Source of the DNA: Pelagibacterium nitratireducens
Lineage (GTDB): Bacteria > Pseudomonadota > Alphaproteobacteria > Rhizobiales > Devosiaceae
Length of the DNA: 64,000 nucleotides
NCBI RefSeq assembly: GCF_037044555.1
Contig: NZ_CP146275.1
Location: 2,956,501-3,020,500 of the forward strand
Direction: 5' to 3'
The notes under the pieces are model-generated. The model worked only from the letters and a program-made list of their open reading frames with translations. It did no database searches and was not told where the DNA came from. This document shows, piece by piece, positions 46,320-53,550 of the stretch; position 1 is the stretch's first letter, and each line of letters opens with the position of its first letter. The translations under genes were made by a program, and so were the position numbers.

Positions 46320-46592
46320 TTATCCCGCCTGGCCATGCACCAAGAGCCAGTTTGCAGCCTGGGATGCCTTGGCGGCAGCCGAAAAGATCGCCTTCTTGTC
46401 GTTTTTGAGAATGGCCAGCCAGCATTTGATATAACTGGCATGATCGGCGCGGGGCGTGGGCGTCAGTCCCAGATCGGCACACAGAAATGCTGCACCAAGT
46501 TCGGCAATCAGCTCTTCGGCAGCATAGGCTTCCTTGCCAAAGCGACCTGAAAGATCCCGATCGAGTCTGGATTTTGCGCCTGACCAGTGGAC
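46320..46592 (-). pseudogene. ardC: ardC 3' half (cut by the RIT element)
   Basis: Reading minus strand from 46592: VHWSGAKSRLDRDLSGRF, then GKEAYAAEELIAELGAAFLC, ending NWLLVHGQAG and stop, 90 codons. This is the C-terminal third of an ArdC-type antirestriction protein, continuing the HELV of the 5' piece at 52539-53168. It has no start codon. Joined, the two pieces give about 299 residues, the normal ArdC length. Confidence 0.9.
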
Positions 46593-46615
46593 CTTATGCC
46601 GATATCGGCATAAGG
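46592..46615. repeat. 24-bp perfect palindrome at the outer left RIT end
   Basis: The sequence between ardC codon gtc and the left inverted repeat is a perfect 24-bp palindrome built from TTATGCCG and its complement around ATAT. The same octamer makes up the terminal repeats. No equivalent lies outside the right end. Confidence 0.85.
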
Positions 46616-46617
46616 CC

Positions 46618-46644
46618 CATTATGCCGGAAGTGGGATTATGCCG
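46618..46644 (+). repeat. RIT left terminal inverted repeat (27 bp)
   Basis: Exact reverse complement of 52512-52538. It contains two direct copies of TTATGCCG 17 bp apart (46620 and 46637). An inverted copy of the core (CGGCATA) follows about 50 bp inside (46695), mirrored at the right end. Confidence 0.92.
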
Positions 46645-46702
46645 CATGGCCGAGTGCGGTGGCTGGTTTGCCGAGGTTCGGCCATGCAGCGGTTCGGCAT
46701 AT

Positions 46703-47695
46703 TCAGAGCGATTCCAGGAAGGCGAGCAACTCGTCGTTAGGACGATACCGCCCCGGATGCGTTTCCGGGTTGGCGACCTGAGCGAGCGCTTTTTCCTTCA
46801 GCCGCATGTCGGCGTGGATATAGATTTGAGTGGTCTCCACGGATTCATGCCCGAGCCAGAGGGCGATTACAGACTGGTCGACGCCATGGTGCAGCAGTTC
46901 CATCGCAGTGCTGTGGCGCAGCGTGTGTGGCGTGACTCGCTTGCCGGCGAGGCTCGGGCAAGCTCGTGATGCCGTCAGGCAATGCTTCCGCACCAGATGC
47001 TCCAAAGCATCCCGGCTGAGTTGCTCGCCTCGGATTGACGGGAACAATGGCCCGTCGCTGTCGCGGCGTTCGCCTACCCAGACCTGGATCAGTTTCGCCG
47101 TATCGCGACGAAGGGGTGTGCTTCGTTCTTTTCGCCCCTTGCCGATGCAGCGGATGTGAGCGCCGGTGCCGAGAACCACGTCTTTGCAGCGCAGGTTGAC
47201 CAGTTCGGACGCCCTTAGCCCGGTCTGGAGTGCAAGCACCAGCAGGACGTGATCTCGCCGCCCGACCCAGGTCGTTCGATCCGGCGCGGCCAGCAGCGCC
47301 GCTATCTCATCAGCGTCGAGGAATGTGACGCTGCGCTTCACATATCGCTTGTTCGGCATGGAGAGAATGCGCTGGCAATGAAGCAACCAACCCGGGTCGG
47401 TCAATGCGACGTATCGGAAGAATGACCGGATGGCTGCAAGACGCGTATTGCGGGTGCGGGCCGTGTTGCCGCGCGCCGTTTCCATATGGGTCAGGAAGTC
47501 GGCGACGAGATCGGCATCGAGATCTTCGATCGTGAGCTTTGTGGGCGGCTTTCCACATCGTGAACTTGCATATCGGACCAGCAGCCGGAATGTGTCCCGG
47601 TAGCCAGCGACGGTGTGGCGGCTCGCTTCCATTTGCGTGCAGAGCCGGTCAGTGAAGAAGCGCTGGATCAGCGTGGGGAAGTTGGTCGCCTTCAT
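46703..47695 (-). CDS. ritC: RIT tyrosine recombinase C
   Basis: About 330 residues from the ATG that overlaps the ritB stop (ATGA). Phage-integrase N-terminal SAM-like domain (FFTDRLCTQMEASRHTVAGY), then catalytic domain with Arg in LQTGLRASELVNL, HTLRHSTAMELLHHG (H-x-x-R), WLGHESVETTQIYIH with the Tyr nucleophile. It is third in the recombinase operon and ends 58 bp from the left inverted repeat. All catalytic residues look intact. Confidence 0.9.
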   Translation of the reverse strand: MKATNFPTLIQRFFTDRLCTQMEASRHTVAGYRDTFRLLVRYASSRCGKPPTKLTIEDLDADLVADFLTHMETARGNTARTRNTRLAAIRSFFRYVALTDPGWLLHCQRILSMPNKRYVKRSVTFLDADEIAALLAAPDRTTWVGRRDHVLLVLALQTGLRASELVNLRCKDVVLGTGAHIRCIGKGRKERSTPLRRDTAKLIQVWVGERRDSDGPLFPSIRGEQLSRDALEHLVRKHCLTASRACPSLAGKRVTPHTLRHSTAMELLHHGVDQSVIALWLGHESVETTQIYIHADMRLKEKALAQVANPETHPGRYRPNDELLAFLESL

Positions 47696-48633
47696 CGACC
47701 TTCCTCCGCCGCCGCGCCTGTTATTCGAGCGGAGGCCAGTTCCAGCAGTTCCGGGACCGCTTCCAGATACCAGTATGTGTGGGCGGTGTTTGCATGACCG
47801 AGCCATGTCGTAAGCTTGATCATCTCGCGACCGACGTCTTTGCCCGACCGATACCAACTCAGCATGGTCTGCACCGCGAAGGTGTGACGAAGATCATGGA
47901 TGCGCGGGCCACGGCCGTGCCGAAGATAAAGCTGCCGCTCTCGCAGCCCGATCTTCTGGCATACATGTGCGAAGTTGTAGCGCGCACCGCAGTCGCCAAG
48001 ACGACGCCCCTCACAGGTCACGAAGAACGCTTCCGGCCTGCGCCCGAGCAGCCGGTCCCGCTCGCGACTATAGCTTTCCAGCCGTTCCACGACGCTCGGG
48101 TCCAGCGGCAGCAACCGCTCCTTGCCGAGCTTGCCCTGCCGGACATGAAGCACACCGGATTCGACATCGAGATCGGCAGGATCGAGACCGAGAGCTTCGC
48201 TGATGCGGAGCCCCGTCACGGCGATCAGACCGAACAGCGTCGAGCACGTCAGGCCGCGCATCCCGTAGGTCGATGGCAGCGATCGCGCATGCTCGATGAT
48301 CGCAACGATTTCGGCGTCACTATAAATATATGGATGCACACGTTGAACGCGACCGGGCACCAATCCCCGGGGCGGGGCCTCGTGCCTGGGATCCTGTCCA
48401 TGCAGCCACTCGGCGAACTGGCGGGCCACCCTGAAGCGTGTTGCCCGTGTTCCGGGACTTGCAGAGGGAAGGCTTTCGAGCCAGCGCATGATCAGGTTGG
48501 CGCTGACGTGCAGCGCGCCGTCGCTGTCGGCGAAGGTGACGAAGCGGCGTAATATCCGTCCATCCGTGGTCATTGCAGTGCCGAGCTGTCGTCTGACGGT
48601 CAGATAGCAGTCCATTTCGGCAAGGAAGCTCAT
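47692..48633 (-). CDS. ritB: RIT tyrosine recombinase B
   Basis: About 313 residues from ATG 48633, preceded by GGAGG and overlapping the ritA stop by ATGA. Catalytic Arg in AVTGLRISEALGL, RIHDLRHTFAV box, and WLGHANTAHTYWYLEAVPEL with the nucleophile Tyr. It is the middle gene of the trio, clearly diverged from A and C, as expected for RIT elements whose three recombinases belong to different subfamilies. Confidence 0.9.
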   Translation of the reverse strand: MSFLAEMDCYLTVRRQLGTAMTTDGRILRRFVTFADSDGALHVSANLIMRWLESLPSASPGTRATRFRVARQFAEWLHGQDPRHEAPPRGLVPGRVQRVHPYIYSDAEIVAIIEHARSLPSTYGMRGLTCSTLFGLIAVTGLRISEALGLDPADLDVESGVLHVRQGKLGKERLLPLDPSVVERLESYSRERDRLLGRRPEAFFVTCEGRRLGDCGARYNFAHVCQKIGLRERQLYLRHGRGPRIHDLRHTFAVQTMLSWYRSGKDVGREMIKLTTWLGHANTAHTYWYLEAVPELLELASARITGAAAEEGR

Positions 48634-49847
48634 CGTGCCACCTCCGCAACAGGCCAAGGCTGGGCAATGGAGCGCAGCCCGTCCGTATCGAGCTTGGCGT
48701 AGATCATCGTCGTCGCCCGCGATCGATGCCGCAGCAGATCGCCGATCTCTTCCAATGACGCACCGGCGCGAACCATGTTCGTCGCCAGGCTGTGGCGCAG
48801 AACATGCGATCCCACATAGGGTGTCGGGGGCTTCACGCCCGTCGCCGCGAACGCCTCCTTCAATATCGTGTTGATGACCTGGCTGTCCTTGAACGGACGG
48901 TTGGGCGCTCGATGCGTCACGAACAACATGCGCGTGGTCGCTGAAGTTCGCTCCTCCTGTAAATACCGAATGATGGCTTCGCCGACGTCCGGCGGGATTG
49001 GCAACCGGTCATGTTGCTGCCCTTTTCCACGAACCATCAGTTCGCCGGCGCGCCAGTCGATGTCATCCAACTGGATCGCGATAATCTCCGGCGCACGCAG
49101 GCCGAGACGAGCCATCAGCAACAGCATGGCGTAGTCGCGGGCACCACGCCGCGGATTGGTGCGCACCGACGCGACGACGGCCTCCACCTCATCAGGCGAC
49201 AGATAACGAGGGAGCCTCGCGCCCCAAGGTTTGTGGACTCTGGGGACGCAGAGCGAGAGGTTGGTCGTCGTGAGGCCCTGGGCGAACAGATACTGGAAGA
49301 AGCTGCGCAGATGCGTGGCCGGCGTCTTGTCGCGGAACGGGCGCTTGCGTGAGAGAAGGTGCTCCATGAACGCCACGACATCCCGCACGTTCAGCGCCGG
49401 CAGGTCGAGCACATTGTCGCCGAAGCGATGGTCGAGAAAGCGATCCGCGAACCGGAGCACGTGATAGATCGTACGCGGGCTGAGACCGCGTTGCCGCAGA
49501 AGATAGGTTTCGAAGTTGCTCAGCAGCTCTGCGCGCTCGGCCTGCGCAGGTGTCAGCGGCGGTCGTGTCGCCACGCCGATTTCAATCAGATGCGCGACGA
49601 ACAGCCTGGCAAGATTGGGAACCTTGATCTGGCTCTGCGGTGTCGCTGGCAATCGACATCCCAATTCAACAGCAAGATCTGGCGTCAACGCCGACGGTGC
49701 AATGGCCTCGTCATCGAGCAAGCGACCGAAGCGTCGAAGCAAATAACGATAATTTTTCAGCGTATCCGGTTTGTAGTTTCTGGACGCAAGGCTTTCTTCG
49801 AATGATGCGAGATACTGATCAAGGCATGTATGATCGGATTTTTCCAT
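48630..49847 (-). CDS. ritA: RIT tyrosine recombinase A
   Basis: About 405 residues from ATG 49847 (GGAG 7 bp upstream); the frame extends to 49943. The N-terminus has two SAM-like helical segments; the catalytic domain has LGLRAPEIIAIQLDDIDW, SHVLRHSLATNMVRAG and LRHRSRATTMIYAKLD with the Tyr. First gene of the recombinase operon, divergent from chrB across 252 bp (49848-50099) that must hold both promoters. Confidence 0.9.
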   Translation of the reverse strand: MEKSDHTCLDQYLASFEESLASRNYKPDTLKNYRYLLRRFGRLLDDEAIAPSALTPDLAVELGCRLPATPQSQIKVPNLARLFVAHLIEIGVATRPPLTPAQAERAELLSNFETYLLRQRGLSPRTIYHVLRFADRFLDHRFGDNVLDLPALNVRDVVAFMEHLLSRKRPFRDKTPATHLRSFFQYLFAQGLTTTNLSLCVPRVHKPWGARLPRYLSPDEVEAVVASVRTNPRRGARDYAMLLLMARLGLRAPEIIAIQLDDIDWRAGELMVRGKGQQHDRLPIPPDVGEAIIRYLQEERTSATTRMLFVTHRAPNRPFKDSQVINTILKEAFAATGVKPPTPYVGSHVLRHSLATNMVRAGASLEEIGDLLRHRSRATTMIYAKLDTDGLRSIAQPWPVAEVAR

Positions 49848-50099
49848 TTCTGTGCTCCATGTTGGTGGAGCAATGAACTTCGCGCCAAATCCCCGCTTTG
49901 TGACCAGTCGATCTTCATCTGAGGGCACGTGCGGCCAAGACAATATTTCGACGTCACCTCTTCAACGCTGACCCGCATATAGAGTTCTTGACGTGGCTGC
50001 CCGGACTTTCGTATCTAAAATTATGGGGATTGCGAGCTCCCCACGAGGCGCCAGCCGAAGATCGCGTTCCTGTTCAACCCCGGCCACGGAGGAACGCAC

Positions 50100-50921
50100 A
50101 TGCCTGCGCCCAATGCCATTTCGTTCGATAAACTCACCCGCATCATCGGAACCCCTCGAGCGCCGCTCTTGCTCGACGTGCGGTCCGAGGAGGATTTCGC
50201 GACCGATCCACGGTTGCTCCCTGGCGCCGCCCGGATCGATGACCAGGCGCTCGCCGCGCTCGCGTCACAACTCGGTGGGCAGCCGTCCATTGCCGTCTGT
50301 CAGGCCGGCCACCGGCGCAGCCAGGGCACGGCTGCCTGGCTTCGCGCCGAAGGCTGCTCCTCGGAATATCTCGAGGGCGGGTTCGATGCTTGGCGAGCGG
50401 CCGGACTCCCGTTGATCGATCCAGGCAAGTTGCCGGCGCGCGATGCGCAGGGCCGTACCATTTGGGTCACCCGCTCCCGCCCCAAAATCGACCGCATCGC
50501 CTGTCCTTGGTTGATCCGGCGCTTTCTCGATCCCCGTGCGATCATCCTGTTCGTTGCCCCCGCCGAAGTGGTGGGCGTCGCCGAGCGCTACAATGCCGCG
50601 CCCTTCGACATCGAGGGCGTGTTCTGGAGCCATCGGGGCGAGCTCTGCACCTTCGATGTGATGCTGGCCGAGTTCGGCCTAGGCATTCCCGCCCTCGACC
50701 GCCTGGCCGCCATCGTTCGCGGAGCCGATACCGCTCGGATGGACCTCGCACCCGAAGCCGCCGGTCTGCTTGCCGCTTCGCTCGGCCTGTCGCGGATGTA
50801 TTCCGACGATCTGGAACAACTAGAGGCCGGGATGCTCCTCTATGACGCCTTTTATCGATGGGCACGGGACGCGACCGACGAGACCCATAACTGGCCCACT
50901 AACAAGCCGAAGGCAGAATGA
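50100..50921 (+). CDS. chrB: Rhodanese-ChrB fusion, chromate resistance protein
   Basis: 273 residues. An N-terminal rhodanese-like domain (LLLDVRSEEDFATDPRLLPG, active-site Cys in AVCQAGHRRSQGTA, about 5-110) is fused to a C-terminal ChrB domain (WVTRSRPKIDRIACPWLIRR and CTFDVMLAEFGL, about 120-265). ChrB domains act in chromate-responsive regulation or chromate handling; the rhodanese part may link sulfur chemistry to it. It overlaps chrA by ATGA. This fused form differs from ChrB proteins without rhodanese. Confidence 0.9.
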   Translation: MPAPNAISFDKLTRIIGTPRAPLLLDVRSEEDFATDPRLLPGAARIDDQALAALASQLGGQPSIAVCQAGHRRSQGTAAWLRAEGCSSEYLEGGFDAWRAAGLPLIDPGKLPARDAQGRTIWVTRSRPKIDRIACPWLIRRFLDPRAIILFVAPAEVVGVAERYNAAPFDIEGVFWSHRGELCTFDVMLAEFGLGIPALDRLAAIVRGADTARMDLAPEAAGLLAASLGLSRMYSDDLEQLEAGMLLYDAFYRWARDATDETHNWPTNKPKAE

Positions 50922-52288
50922 TGCAGGACCGCGCATATCCAACCCTTGGTGCGGCCACCCGCATCTGGGCCCGCATTGGCCTGCTGAGCTTTGGCGGCCC
51001 CGCAGGACAGATCGCGCTCATGCATCGCATCCTCGTCGAAGAACAGCGCTGGCTGGGTGAGAAGCGGTTCCTTCATGCGCTCAACTACTGCATGCTGCTG
51101 CCGGGGCCGGAAGCCATGCAACTCGCCGTCTATATCGGCTGGCTGATGCATCGCACCCTCGGCGGCATCATCGCGGGCGTCCTCTTCGTGCTGCCGGGCG
51201 TCGTGGCGATCATGGCACTCAGCTGGGTCTATGCGCTTTACGGCAATGTCGGGCCAGTCGAAGCTTTGTTCTTCGGGCTCAAGGCCGCGGTGCTGGCCAT
51301 CGTGGTGCAGGCGGTCATCCGGATCGGCTCGCGTGCACTGAAGAACGGGGCGATGGTCACCATCGCCGCCGCCGCCTTCGTAGCGATCTTTGGCTTCGCC
51401 ATCCCTTTCCCGCTCATCATCCTGATTGCTGGCTTGATCGGGTTCTTCGGCGCCCGTGCGGGTCTGCCTGCATTTCATGGTGGCGGCGGACACGGCAAGG
51501 TGGGCAAGGTCCAGGTCGATGACGCCGACACCCTCCTCGGCGAAGAATCGCCGGCTCACACGCAGGTCAACCGAGGGTGGGCGTTTCGCGTCTCGGCAGC
51601 GTTCCTCGTGCTCTGGTTGGTCCCGGTCGCCCTGCTGTTCGCCGTCTTCGGTCCGGCCAACGTTTTTGCCCAGATCGCAGGCTTTTTCAGCGTCATGGCC
51701 GTGGTGACCTTCGGTGGCGCTTATGCGGTCCTTGCCTATGTCGCGCAGGAGGCAGTTCAGAACTACGGCTGGCTCGCCCCCGGCGAGATGCTGGACGGGC
51801 TCGGCATGGCCGAGACTACGCCCGGGCCCCTAATCATGGTGACGCAGTTCGTGGGCTTCATGGGAGCCTTCCGCGATGCGGGCGGACTGTCGCCGTTGAT
51901 GGCGGGAACGCTGGGCGGGCTGCTGACGACATGGGTTACGTTCACACCCTGCTTCCTCTGGATATTCCTAGGTGCCCCGTTCATCGAGCGCTTGCGCGAC
52001 AACAAAGTGCTGACAGCAGCCCTGACGGCGATCACGGCCGCCGTCGTGGGGGTGATCATGAATCTTGCGGTCTGGTTCGGTCTGCATGTTGTTTTCGATG
52101 AGGTGCAGACGATCACGTCTTTCGGCCTCGATCTCGATGTGCCCGTCTGGTCCACAATGAACCTGTCTGCTGCGGCGTTGGTCCTTGCCGCGCTTGTCGC
52201 GGTTTTCCGCTTCAAGCTCGGCCCAGTGACGGTTCTCGCCGGGTGCGCAGCGGCTGGTCTGGTTCTTGGGGTGGCCAACATTGCATAA
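50918..52288 (+). CDS. chrA: Chromate efflux transporter
   Basis: 456 residues with two homologous CHR domains of about six helices each. The N-terminal motif IGLLSFGGPAGQIALMHRIL is repeated in divergent form in the second half (VVTFGGAYAVLAYVAQEAVQ, MAETTPGPLIMVTQFVGFMG). A charged linker lies near residues 195-215. It expels chromate across the inner membrane and is the chromate-resistance determinant. It is translationally coupled to chrB and ends 223 bp before the right inverted repeat. Confidence 0.93.
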   Translation: MMQDRAYPTLGAATRIWARIGLLSFGGPAGQIALMHRILVEEQRWLGEKRFLHALNYCMLLPGPEAMQLAVYIGWLMHRTLGGIIAGVLFVLPGVVAIMALSWVYALYGNVGPVEALFFGLKAAVLAIVVQAVIRIGSRALKNGAMVTIAAAAFVAIFGFAIPFPLIILIAGLIGFFGARAGLPAFHGGGGHGKVGKVQVDDADTLLGEESPAHTQVNRGWAFRVSAAFLVLWLVPVALLFAVFGPANVFAQIAGFFSVMAVVTFGGAYAVLAYVAQEAVQNYGWLAPGEMLDGLGMAETTPGPLIMVTQFVGFMGAFRDAGGLSPLMAGTLGGLLTTWVTFTPCFLWIFLGAPFIERLRDNKVLTAALTAITAAVVGVIMNLAVWFGLHVVFDEVQTITSFGLDLDVPVWSTMNLSAAALVLAALVAVFRFKLGPVTVLAGCAAAGLVLGVANIA

Positions 52289-52475
52289 CGGTGATCCGCT
52301 CTCGCGATCCAAGTGAGAGCCAAAGGGCCCATGACGAGATTGATAAGGGGACAACGCCGCATTTCGTCAAAGCCCCACCCGGACAATCGGATCGTGGGCA
52401 CGCTAACCCCTAACCGAATTCCTCAGCTCCCTTGAGTTTCGTTTGGGCGTCGGTTTATGCCGAGCGCAAAGAGGA

Positions 52476-53168
52476 CTATGGCCTGCAATTACAGCAGAGC
52501 GCTTGCGAAGTCGGCATAATCCCACTTCCGGCATAATGTACAAGCTCATGGCAAAGCGTCGCGTAAAAGGCCTCGCGTGCCCCACTTGTATTTGTGCCCA
52601 CAAAGCGCTTGCGATCCGGCATTCGGATCAGGTCATAGCCGGGAATGTAGCATGCATGTTCGCCACCCTCGTCGATGACTGCACCGGTGGCGGCAACGAA
52701 CTGCTCTGCCTTCTCGATCGGATCGAATAGCGGTCCGTCTGGAAGTGTCTCTGGCGCACATTCAAAGCCCTCAACCTGTGCTGCGTTGAACACGGAGCTG
52801 GCCCGGGCAATGAACCGCTCACCGACTTGGGTTTCGCCGGTCTCCTGGTTGGTCTCTTCAACCGACAGAGTCTTATGAAAGACCACGAGCGCGGATTTCT
52901 CGCCGCGGCGGACCTGGCAGCCCTTGTCCTGCCATTGCCGATACGTGCCCCAGATGTTGGACGGGTATTCAGCAACAAACGCTGCGACCCAGAGGCTGAC
53001 GATGTTGACGCCATTGTAGGGGTTCTTCGAAGCGATGTTGACGGGGCGGGCAAAGCTGCCGGCCGTGCTTTTGATCCATGGGAGCCGGAAGTCTTCGGCG
53101 GTCTCGATCGCATCGACGATGCGGTTGGTGATCTCCTGATGGACATCGAATTTTTGGGTGCGTGGCAT
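52476..53168 (-). pseudogene. ardC: ardC 5' part, truncated by the RIT element
   Basis: ATG 53168 follows AAAGGAGAG. The first 210 codons are a normal ArdC N-terminus (MPRTQKFDVHQEITNRIVDA, NIWGTYRQWQDKGCQVRRGE) reaching FYATLCHELV of the HExxH zinc motif. The element's end supplies the final His codon, and the frame then runs 20 residues into the element to a stop at 52476. Intact ArdC protects incoming single-stranded DNA from restriction; this copy should be inactive. Confidence 0.9.
52512..52538 (-). repeat. RIT right terminal inverted repeat (27 bp)
   Basis: Perfect inverted copy of 46618-46644, with CGGCATAA at 52512 and 52529 and the opposed TTATGCCG at 52455, the same spacing as at the left end. 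The interval 52289-52511 between chrA and this end holds no gene. Confidence 0.92.
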
Positions 53169-53550
53169 GGGTCTCTCCTTTCGTTGCCTGGAGCCGCGAT
53201 CGGCGCGGCCTGATGGCGACCGAAGAGGCTGAGCCAGACGGCCCTTGCACCCCGAAAGGGGCGGGCGAAGCGAAAAGACGGCGCATGCCGTTGCGAGGGC
53301 GGAGGGTTCGGCCAGGAAAGCCACGAAGGAAGGCCGCGACACACGCGGCGGTCAGACGGAAAGCTGGAGAGAGAAAGCGACGCCCATGAAGATGAATGCA
53401 GCGCAATCGAGCACACCCAGCATGATCCGGCAAATGTTGAAGCGTCCGGATTCAGCGCGAGGACGGCGCCCCCTCCCAAACTATTGACTAGAACCTAGTT
53501 ACAAGGTACTACTAATCGCATCAGTGCAAAGAGGATGGTGTGCTACTGTG
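53169..53550. other. Upstream region of ardC and the winged-helix gene
   Basis: 382 bp between divergent genes with no convincing coding frame. It contains the ardC ribosome site at its left edge and presumably both promoters. No repeat of the backbone 9-mer or G-rich leader families is seen. Confidence 0.4.

Follow-up and report, generated by a model that had tools for sequence, protein, structure and literature searches.

A cargo-bearing recombinase-in-trio element with chromate-resistance genes, inserted in an ardC gene of Pelagibacterium nitratireducens

Chromate-resistance genes are mobile on Tn3-type transposons such as TnOtChr, which have a DDE transposase and a resolvase and, to our knowledge, no tyrosine recombinase trio. 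Here we describe such genes inside a recombinase-in-trio (RIT) element, found in a 64,000-nucleotide stretch of the Pelagibacterium nitratireducens genome (contig NZ_CP146275.1, positions 2,956,501 to 3,020,500; hereafter the window, whose first letter is position 1). The presence in the window of a RIT element with chrBA inside it is confirmed, and comparison with related units shows its anatomy, its cargo and its target, the antirestriction gene ardC. We consider it quite probable that this is a cargo-bearing RIT transposon: a two-part unit directed at ardC, with a slot occupied by chrBA and a circular form containing two joints.

RITs are described as about 3.5 kb long (PMC3414803), with three coding regions and 34-bp repeats (PMC10214605), a RitA with two CB domains and a RitC with an extra C-terminal helix (PMC8138268). 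The 2012 RIT survey finds the need for three recombinases hard to see and mentions an overlapping palindromic sequence (PMC3414803); a palindrome beside a RIT is an already known feature. By the features tested, all of them read from sequence, the window element is a RIT. Its trio shares 35%, 36% and 53% identity with RitA, RitB and RitC of pHG1 over nearly their full length, and a motif scan finds the R-HxxR-H-Y catalytic motif in all three proteins (the XerD alignment was made for RitC only). SAM-like (N-terminal) domain models match RitA at 14-48 and 112-192, and the RitC tail is conserved with that of pHG1 RitC in a sequence alignment. Like the archetype (Cupriavidus CH34/pHG1), the window element has an ATGA-coupled trio, paired half-site repeats and a palindrome past one end (PMC3414803, PMC2864759). 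RIT ends are expected to have repeats of about 28-34 bp and a palindrome nearby, and here perfect 27-bp repeats are accompanied by a 20-bp palindrome. Unlike the archetype, the window element carries chrBA, targets ardC and sits in a cargo-bearing clade; at 5,921 bp with chrBA it also departs from the usual description, itself no strict definition, of three genes only and about 3.5 kb.

In strand-biased circularizing elements (SEs) and Tn554 the insertion footprint consists of the target's 6 bp on one side and 6 bp carried by the element on the other (PMC10214605, with Tn554 as told there). The window element appears to share this 6-bp spacer logic, and a donor-to-new-site footprint of this kind would fit the spacer comparison described below (46 rows, 8 pairs). 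It differs in that its ends are equivalent inverted repeats, in that the stretch past ritC is too short for a TnpC/Srap-type gene, and in its 20-bp palindrome, which seems to supply a partner half-site and so to give three spacers, not two. No accessory gene of this type (Srap/TnpC; Tfp in SEs) appears in the open reading frame (ORF) listing of the element, no profile search having been made. The gaps are 58 bp between ritC and the repeat and 252 bp between ritA and chrB, and the only ORFs of at least 70 aa in the cargo region are chrA, chrB and a 78-aa ORF overlapping the ritA start. Because the accessory gene was not seen in the ORF lists, the element is not classed with SE/Tn554.

GInts also combine three recombinase-like genes with variable cargo, and those of pseudomonads share one target gene (PMC5385486). 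They differ from the window element in having a four-gene ginABCD operon, imperfect direct end repeats and a cargo that ranges from 2.5 kb to 70 kb or more. No ginABCD-type fourth gene is present in the window element, where the three recombinase genes are followed by the terminal repeat 58 bp past ritC.

The element and its chrBA genes

The element (hereafter E) spans 5,921 bp and contains ritABC and a divergent chrBA pair between 27-bp perfect inverted repeats, one at the ritC end (46618..46644, + strand) and one at the cargo end (52512..52538, - strand), which are 100% complementary. A search of the 3.85-Mb genome allowing up to 3 mismatches matched the repeat at these two ends only, and a reversed-pattern control matched nowhere. 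The recombinase genes lie on the - strand, with ritC at 46703..47695 (330 aa), ritB at 47692..48633 (313 aa) and ritA at 48630..49847 (405 aa); ATGA overlaps couple all three, and each protein matches PF00589. Beside ritA is the cargo slot (49889..52450, limits approximate), which is variable among related elements and empty in cargo-free ones. In the window it holds two + strand genes that overlap in the same manner: a chrB-type gene for a sulfurtransferase/chromate-resistance protein (50100..50921, 273 aa; Rhodanese and ChrB_C, the name being taken from the annotation of locus L003) and chrA for a chromate efflux transporter (50918..52288, 456 aa; Chromate_transp).

An earlier reading made from the letters of the window alone (hereafter the sequence-only reading) had recorded the coupled trio, the divergent chrB-chrA pair and the perfect repeats, and all were found again. 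Its finer description of the ends holds in part. Direct TTATGCCG octamers spaced 17 bp apart are present at each end, as it had stated (46620/46637; 52512/52529, reversed), and the inverted copy, placed by it about 50 bp inside, lies some 57-58 bp deeper; the right-hand copy (52455) is perfect, and the left-hand one (46695; CGGCATAT) matches at 7/8 positions. Its start at 46592 lies beyond the repeat and takes in a separate 20-bp palindrome (46594..46613); this palindrome proved to be part of the mobile unit, which comprises E (5,921 bp), a 6-bp spacer and the palindrome.

The proposal of a RIT transposon with a chromate-resistance passenger is supported by five copies that keep chrBA inside ends of the same type (window, L003, L011, L012 and L015). 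The sequence-only reading had suggested a search for the same unit with identical ends elsewhere, and it was found in two further genera. In Paracoccus halophilus (L011) the 5,921-bp unit is present at 99.98% identity with the same ends, on a contig that starts exactly at the element's first base, so that the ardC 5' side falls outside the contig; in Glycocaulis profundi (L012) the complete unit, at 99.97%, interrupts a different ardC with its orientation reversed. A Novosphingobium plasmid (L003) and Pseudochelatococcus (L015) have versions at 86%, the L015 contig barely exceeding the element in length. Since five copies have the same boundaries, chrBA lies inside the mobile unit.

Could chrBA have come to lie beside a RIT by chance, the outer repeat being a second, solo RIT end and E a one-off composite? 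Some plasmid records (e.g., H21-H24) match the chr part of the element only, so that chrBA modules seem to circulate without a RIT, and for the same reason capture of the cargo from a free pool of such modules is likely. A one-off composite is barely credible, however, given that the boundaries agree in five copies, of which three, from different organisms, are near-identical, and given that 35 of 68 related units are of cargo-bearing size. The sequence-only reading had also allowed that chrBA might prove common outside RIT ends, or native to the surroundings of ardC. Across 105 loci, ChrA and ChrB beyond the five copies were seen only in the window's own L002 (ChrA only). An original ardC neighbourhood containing chrBA was rejected, as three empty ardC genes read through the insertion site and chrBA is not found elsewhere in the 105 loci.

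Cargo in related units

Relatives were drawn from a RitC scan of 84,980 species genomes, which gave 154 relatives, the best 80 being kept as 78 loci, and from 569 plasmid records with a RitC match, of which 19 RIT loci were taken besides pHG1; the proportions given here describe a sample close to the query element. Unit boundaries were set from the inverted repeats, yielding 68 two-ended units (58 plus 11 more, with L101 dropped; near-copies counted). Units of at least 3.6 kb were taken as cargo-bearing, the remainder measuring about 3.0-3.4 kb, and by this length criterion 35 of the 68 are cargo-sized. The cargo is located between ritA and the far repeat, beside ritA, and in close relatives of the window element the shared sequence starts about 40 bp upstream of ritA, takes in ritABC and runs on to the ritC end. 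The RitC tree places the window in a 23-row clade in which every row bears cargo (support 97/91), and cargo presence changes 6 times on the tree vs 22.7 times for shuffled labels. The tree supports one RIT clade being cargo-bearing as a whole. The sequence-only reading, which saw in the resistance passenger a gene-capture mode seldom attributed to RITs, is borne out and was too modest: cargo is present in about half of the related units and is of many kinds.

Pfam matches illustrate this range. They include a carbon-nitrogen hydrolase (nitrilase) in L004, NlpC/P60 in L005, a SulP permease in L006, a methyladenine glycosylase with an FMN oxidoreductase in L010, a LysR regulator with a weak ABM match in L013, an alpha/beta hydrolase in L016, a DAHP/KdsA-type synthase in L018, a histidine kinase in L033 and a DDE transposase in L045. 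The 10.4-kb RIT of a Hyphomicrobiales metagenome-assembled genome (L021, 659-11075) carries NhaA and an arsenic-resistance-like cluster made up of an ArsR-type regulator, MFS, an FMN reductase (ArsH-type), ArsC, an SBF-family (ACR3-type) protein and GNAT. Two of the 20 cargo proteins scanned (L014, L025) are without a Pfam match, and in some large units (L008, L063) the cargo looks decayed or is unnamed. A two-gene cargo (~145-165 and ~215-225 aa) recurs in the first 1.3 kb of E in L022, L025, L026, L028, L039, L043 and L055; one of its proteins was scanned (L025), with no Pfam match.

In several alphaproteobacterial groups RITs carry metal resistance and other traits, a role that is easily missed because rit genes are labelled merely as tyrosine-type recombinases. 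A partial literature search found no description of cargo-bearing RITs, of ardC as a RIT target or of the spacer memory proposed below. An earlier description is possible, and the novelty of all three is provisional.

The ardC target, the palindrome and the spacers

The sequence-only reading had noted that the element is inserted inside another gene. This gene is ardC, which E splits within the HExxH motif. The 5' part (52539..53225 as scanned, - strand, gene start not fixed) ends ...CHELV and matches ArdcN and MPTase-PolyVal (zincin domain start), and the 3' part (46320..46592, - strand, 90 aa, VHWSGAKSRLDRD... to the stop) resumes at VHWSG. A palindrome is present and the 5' flank can be read in 53 units; 48 of these have HE codons at the junction (47 without L030), and the other 5 have other targets. 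Domain scans of 10 five-prime flanks picked from the 47 ardC rows gave ArdcN and MPTase-PolyVal every time. Uninterrupted ardC genes in L092, L093 and L094 read continuously across the site. The spacer of the empty plasmid allele (L093) in Methylocystis rosea, GACGCA, is also that of both ardC junctions in the occupied locus (L004), which belongs to another strain. Together these sequence comparisons show site-specific insertion at the active-site HExxH codons of ardC-type genes, in either orientation. Targets without an ardC motif are present in L035, L050, L053, L062, L068, L071 and L074; there the terminal dinucleotides are TA, CT or GT, not CA, and they equal the last two bases of the spacer between palindrome and target where this is readable (L035, L050, L062, L068, L071).

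For the comparison of junctions, 16 of 69 units were set aside (contig end, no palindrome beside E, or a missing end as in L101), followed by L030 (same insertion as L029), the 5 with other targets and L020 (displaced junction), which left 46 rows. The expression by which palindromes were recognised would miss strongly divergent ones. The palindrome, TTATGCCGATATCGGCATAA in the window (46594..46613, perfect over 20 bp), is on the ardC 3' side in 46 of 46 readable ardC insertions, with E facing + in 28 and - in 18, and HE codons occur on the palindrome side in none of 54 sides examined.

If the palindrome stands outside the 27-bp repeats and always on one side of ardC, is it part of the mobile unit at all? 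This position would suit a resident feature of the target, or the scar of an older insertion. Such an origin is highly improbable, as the palindrome is absent from the three empty ardC sites, which read through, and accompanies E in other targets also (L035, L050, L062, L068, L071). The pHG1 archetype has its own variant, a different palindrome that follows the element end in the same arrangement. The exact palindrome is rare among evenly drawn genomes: one of 384 further genomes of the class has it, as does one of 296 of the order, and these yielded no additional pairs. In L090, around 1500, the exact palindrome adjoins a decayed-looking RIT end.

With the palindrome included, each insertion has three 6-bp spacers. 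Spacer A lies between the ardC 5' part and E (TGTACA in the window, 52537..52542), spacer B between E and the palindrome (GGCCCA, 46614..46619, + strand, ardC-codon-like) and spacer C between the palindrome and the ardC 3' part (GGTCCA on the - strand, 46588..46593). In these ardC insertions all three terminate in CA, with which the histidine codon starts. Although buried, B read in the ardC frame encodes only G, V, T, S, I, A, L or C in 46 of 46 rows, the same residue set as A; the chance of this pattern in random DNA is about 1e-11 (38 rows, assuming an independence that near-copies violate). Spacers are identical within a copy more often than in shuffles (A=B in 8, A=C in 13 and B=C in 9 of 46 vs shuffle means of 1.6-1.9). 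Closely related ardC genes hold insertions that form 8 pairs. Their A spacers agree fully in 5 pairs and differ by one base in 3, and no pair has the same C; two further listed pairs, which look like inherited single insertions, were left out. Because A is the same or nearly the same in these pairs and C in none, A most likely belongs to the target and C was brought in by the element, as would then hold for TGTACA and GGTCCA in the window. B and C seem to have been carried from earlier sites.

A predicted circle with two joints

From these comparisons we infer a circular form and the strand steps around it. RitABC would join the junction of ardC 5' part and E with the junction of palindrome and ardC 3' part, releasing a circle made up of E and the palindrome, linked through two 6-bp spacers, in a Tn554/SE-like fashion. 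Both joints would have the form palindrome-NNNNCA-E end, given the inverted repeats at the ends of E and the symmetry of the palindrome. ardC could then recombine with either joint, the one used setting the orientation of E, and the palindrome would end up at the ardC 3' side in both cases. The ardC 5' junction would keep the target's 6 bp; of the two carried spacers, that of the recombining joint would pass to the 3' junction and the other would be buried between E and the palindrome, so that earlier ardC sites would be remembered. We lean towards a two-part RIT with a palindrome that donates a half-site and two interchangeable crossovers, whose spacers record the present target and up to two earlier ones, within an ardC-addressed cargo clade that rides plasmids and islands.

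A single step would account for a pair in R. anhuiense T24, where A, B and C are TTGCCA, GACGCA and TTCACA in L095 and GACGCA, TTGCCA and GACGCA in L096. The two elements are 100% identical and face opposite ways, and L096 has as its B and C the A and B sequences of L095. In a step of the L095 to L096 type, the circle would take up the donor's A, integrate via the other joint and turn round. L026/L055 and L006/L019 also fit a single step.

A simpler scheme would combine plain cut-and-paste site-specific integration with later inversion of E in place by RitABC, the palindrome being a passive accessory site. Both orientations are indeed common (28 and 18 of 46), A=B equality exceeds the shuffles, L046 has identical ardC 5' flanks on both sides, as if two orientations had merged in assembly, and L009 and L044 carry the same element in opposite orientations, within closely related ardC genes. 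This scheme leaves unexplained, however, the ardC-type codons in the buried spacer, often unlike both ardC junctions, as well as the fixed exchange of A, B and C between sites in L095/L096 and L026/L055. We therefore think it improbable as stated, and in-place inversion may act alongside the circle.

Several observations weigh against the two-joint circle. Of six pairs with complete spacers, in which elements at least 99.8% identical occupy different ardC genes, one step suffices for only 3; L097/L098 agrees with it by half, and further steps would be required for L009/L044 and window/L012. The order from donor to recipient has no independent basis, and a mirrored rule would account for the pair data taken by themselves. 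Of the 8 pairs used for polarity, three share one ardC allele, and L009/L044 could be one insertion with E turned round. The 3' junction of L020 is shifted 3 nt relative to the ardC reading (TAACGTCCACTGG), ardC 5' sequence flanks both sides in L023 and L046 (perhaps assembly merges), and L099 and L104 are without the palindrome. A preference for a target-matching spacer is not evident in the 46 rows (A=C 13 vs A=B 8). Circle, excision and transposition are themselves predicted events.

Should the two-joint circle operate as proposed, resistance would spread with it, because ardC is often found on conjugative plasmids and islands. The results supply a target for RITs (ardC), empty sites and true ends; they also suggest what the palindrome does and yield predictions for which the sequence of one junction is enough.

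Some individual loci have unusual surroundings. In L046 (2239-5581) the same ardC 5' sequence is on both sides in inverted order, either through an assembly merge or through inversion of E in place. On the cargo-end side of Sinorhizobium L099 and L104 other DNA starts right at the spacer, and an IS91-family gene is annotated near L099. The Tardibacter plasmids pHSL4 (L097) and pHSL3 (L098) each have, by the RIT, a second trio of large integrase/hypothetical genes near ardC-type (zincin) genes, and ardC may attract several recombinase elements.

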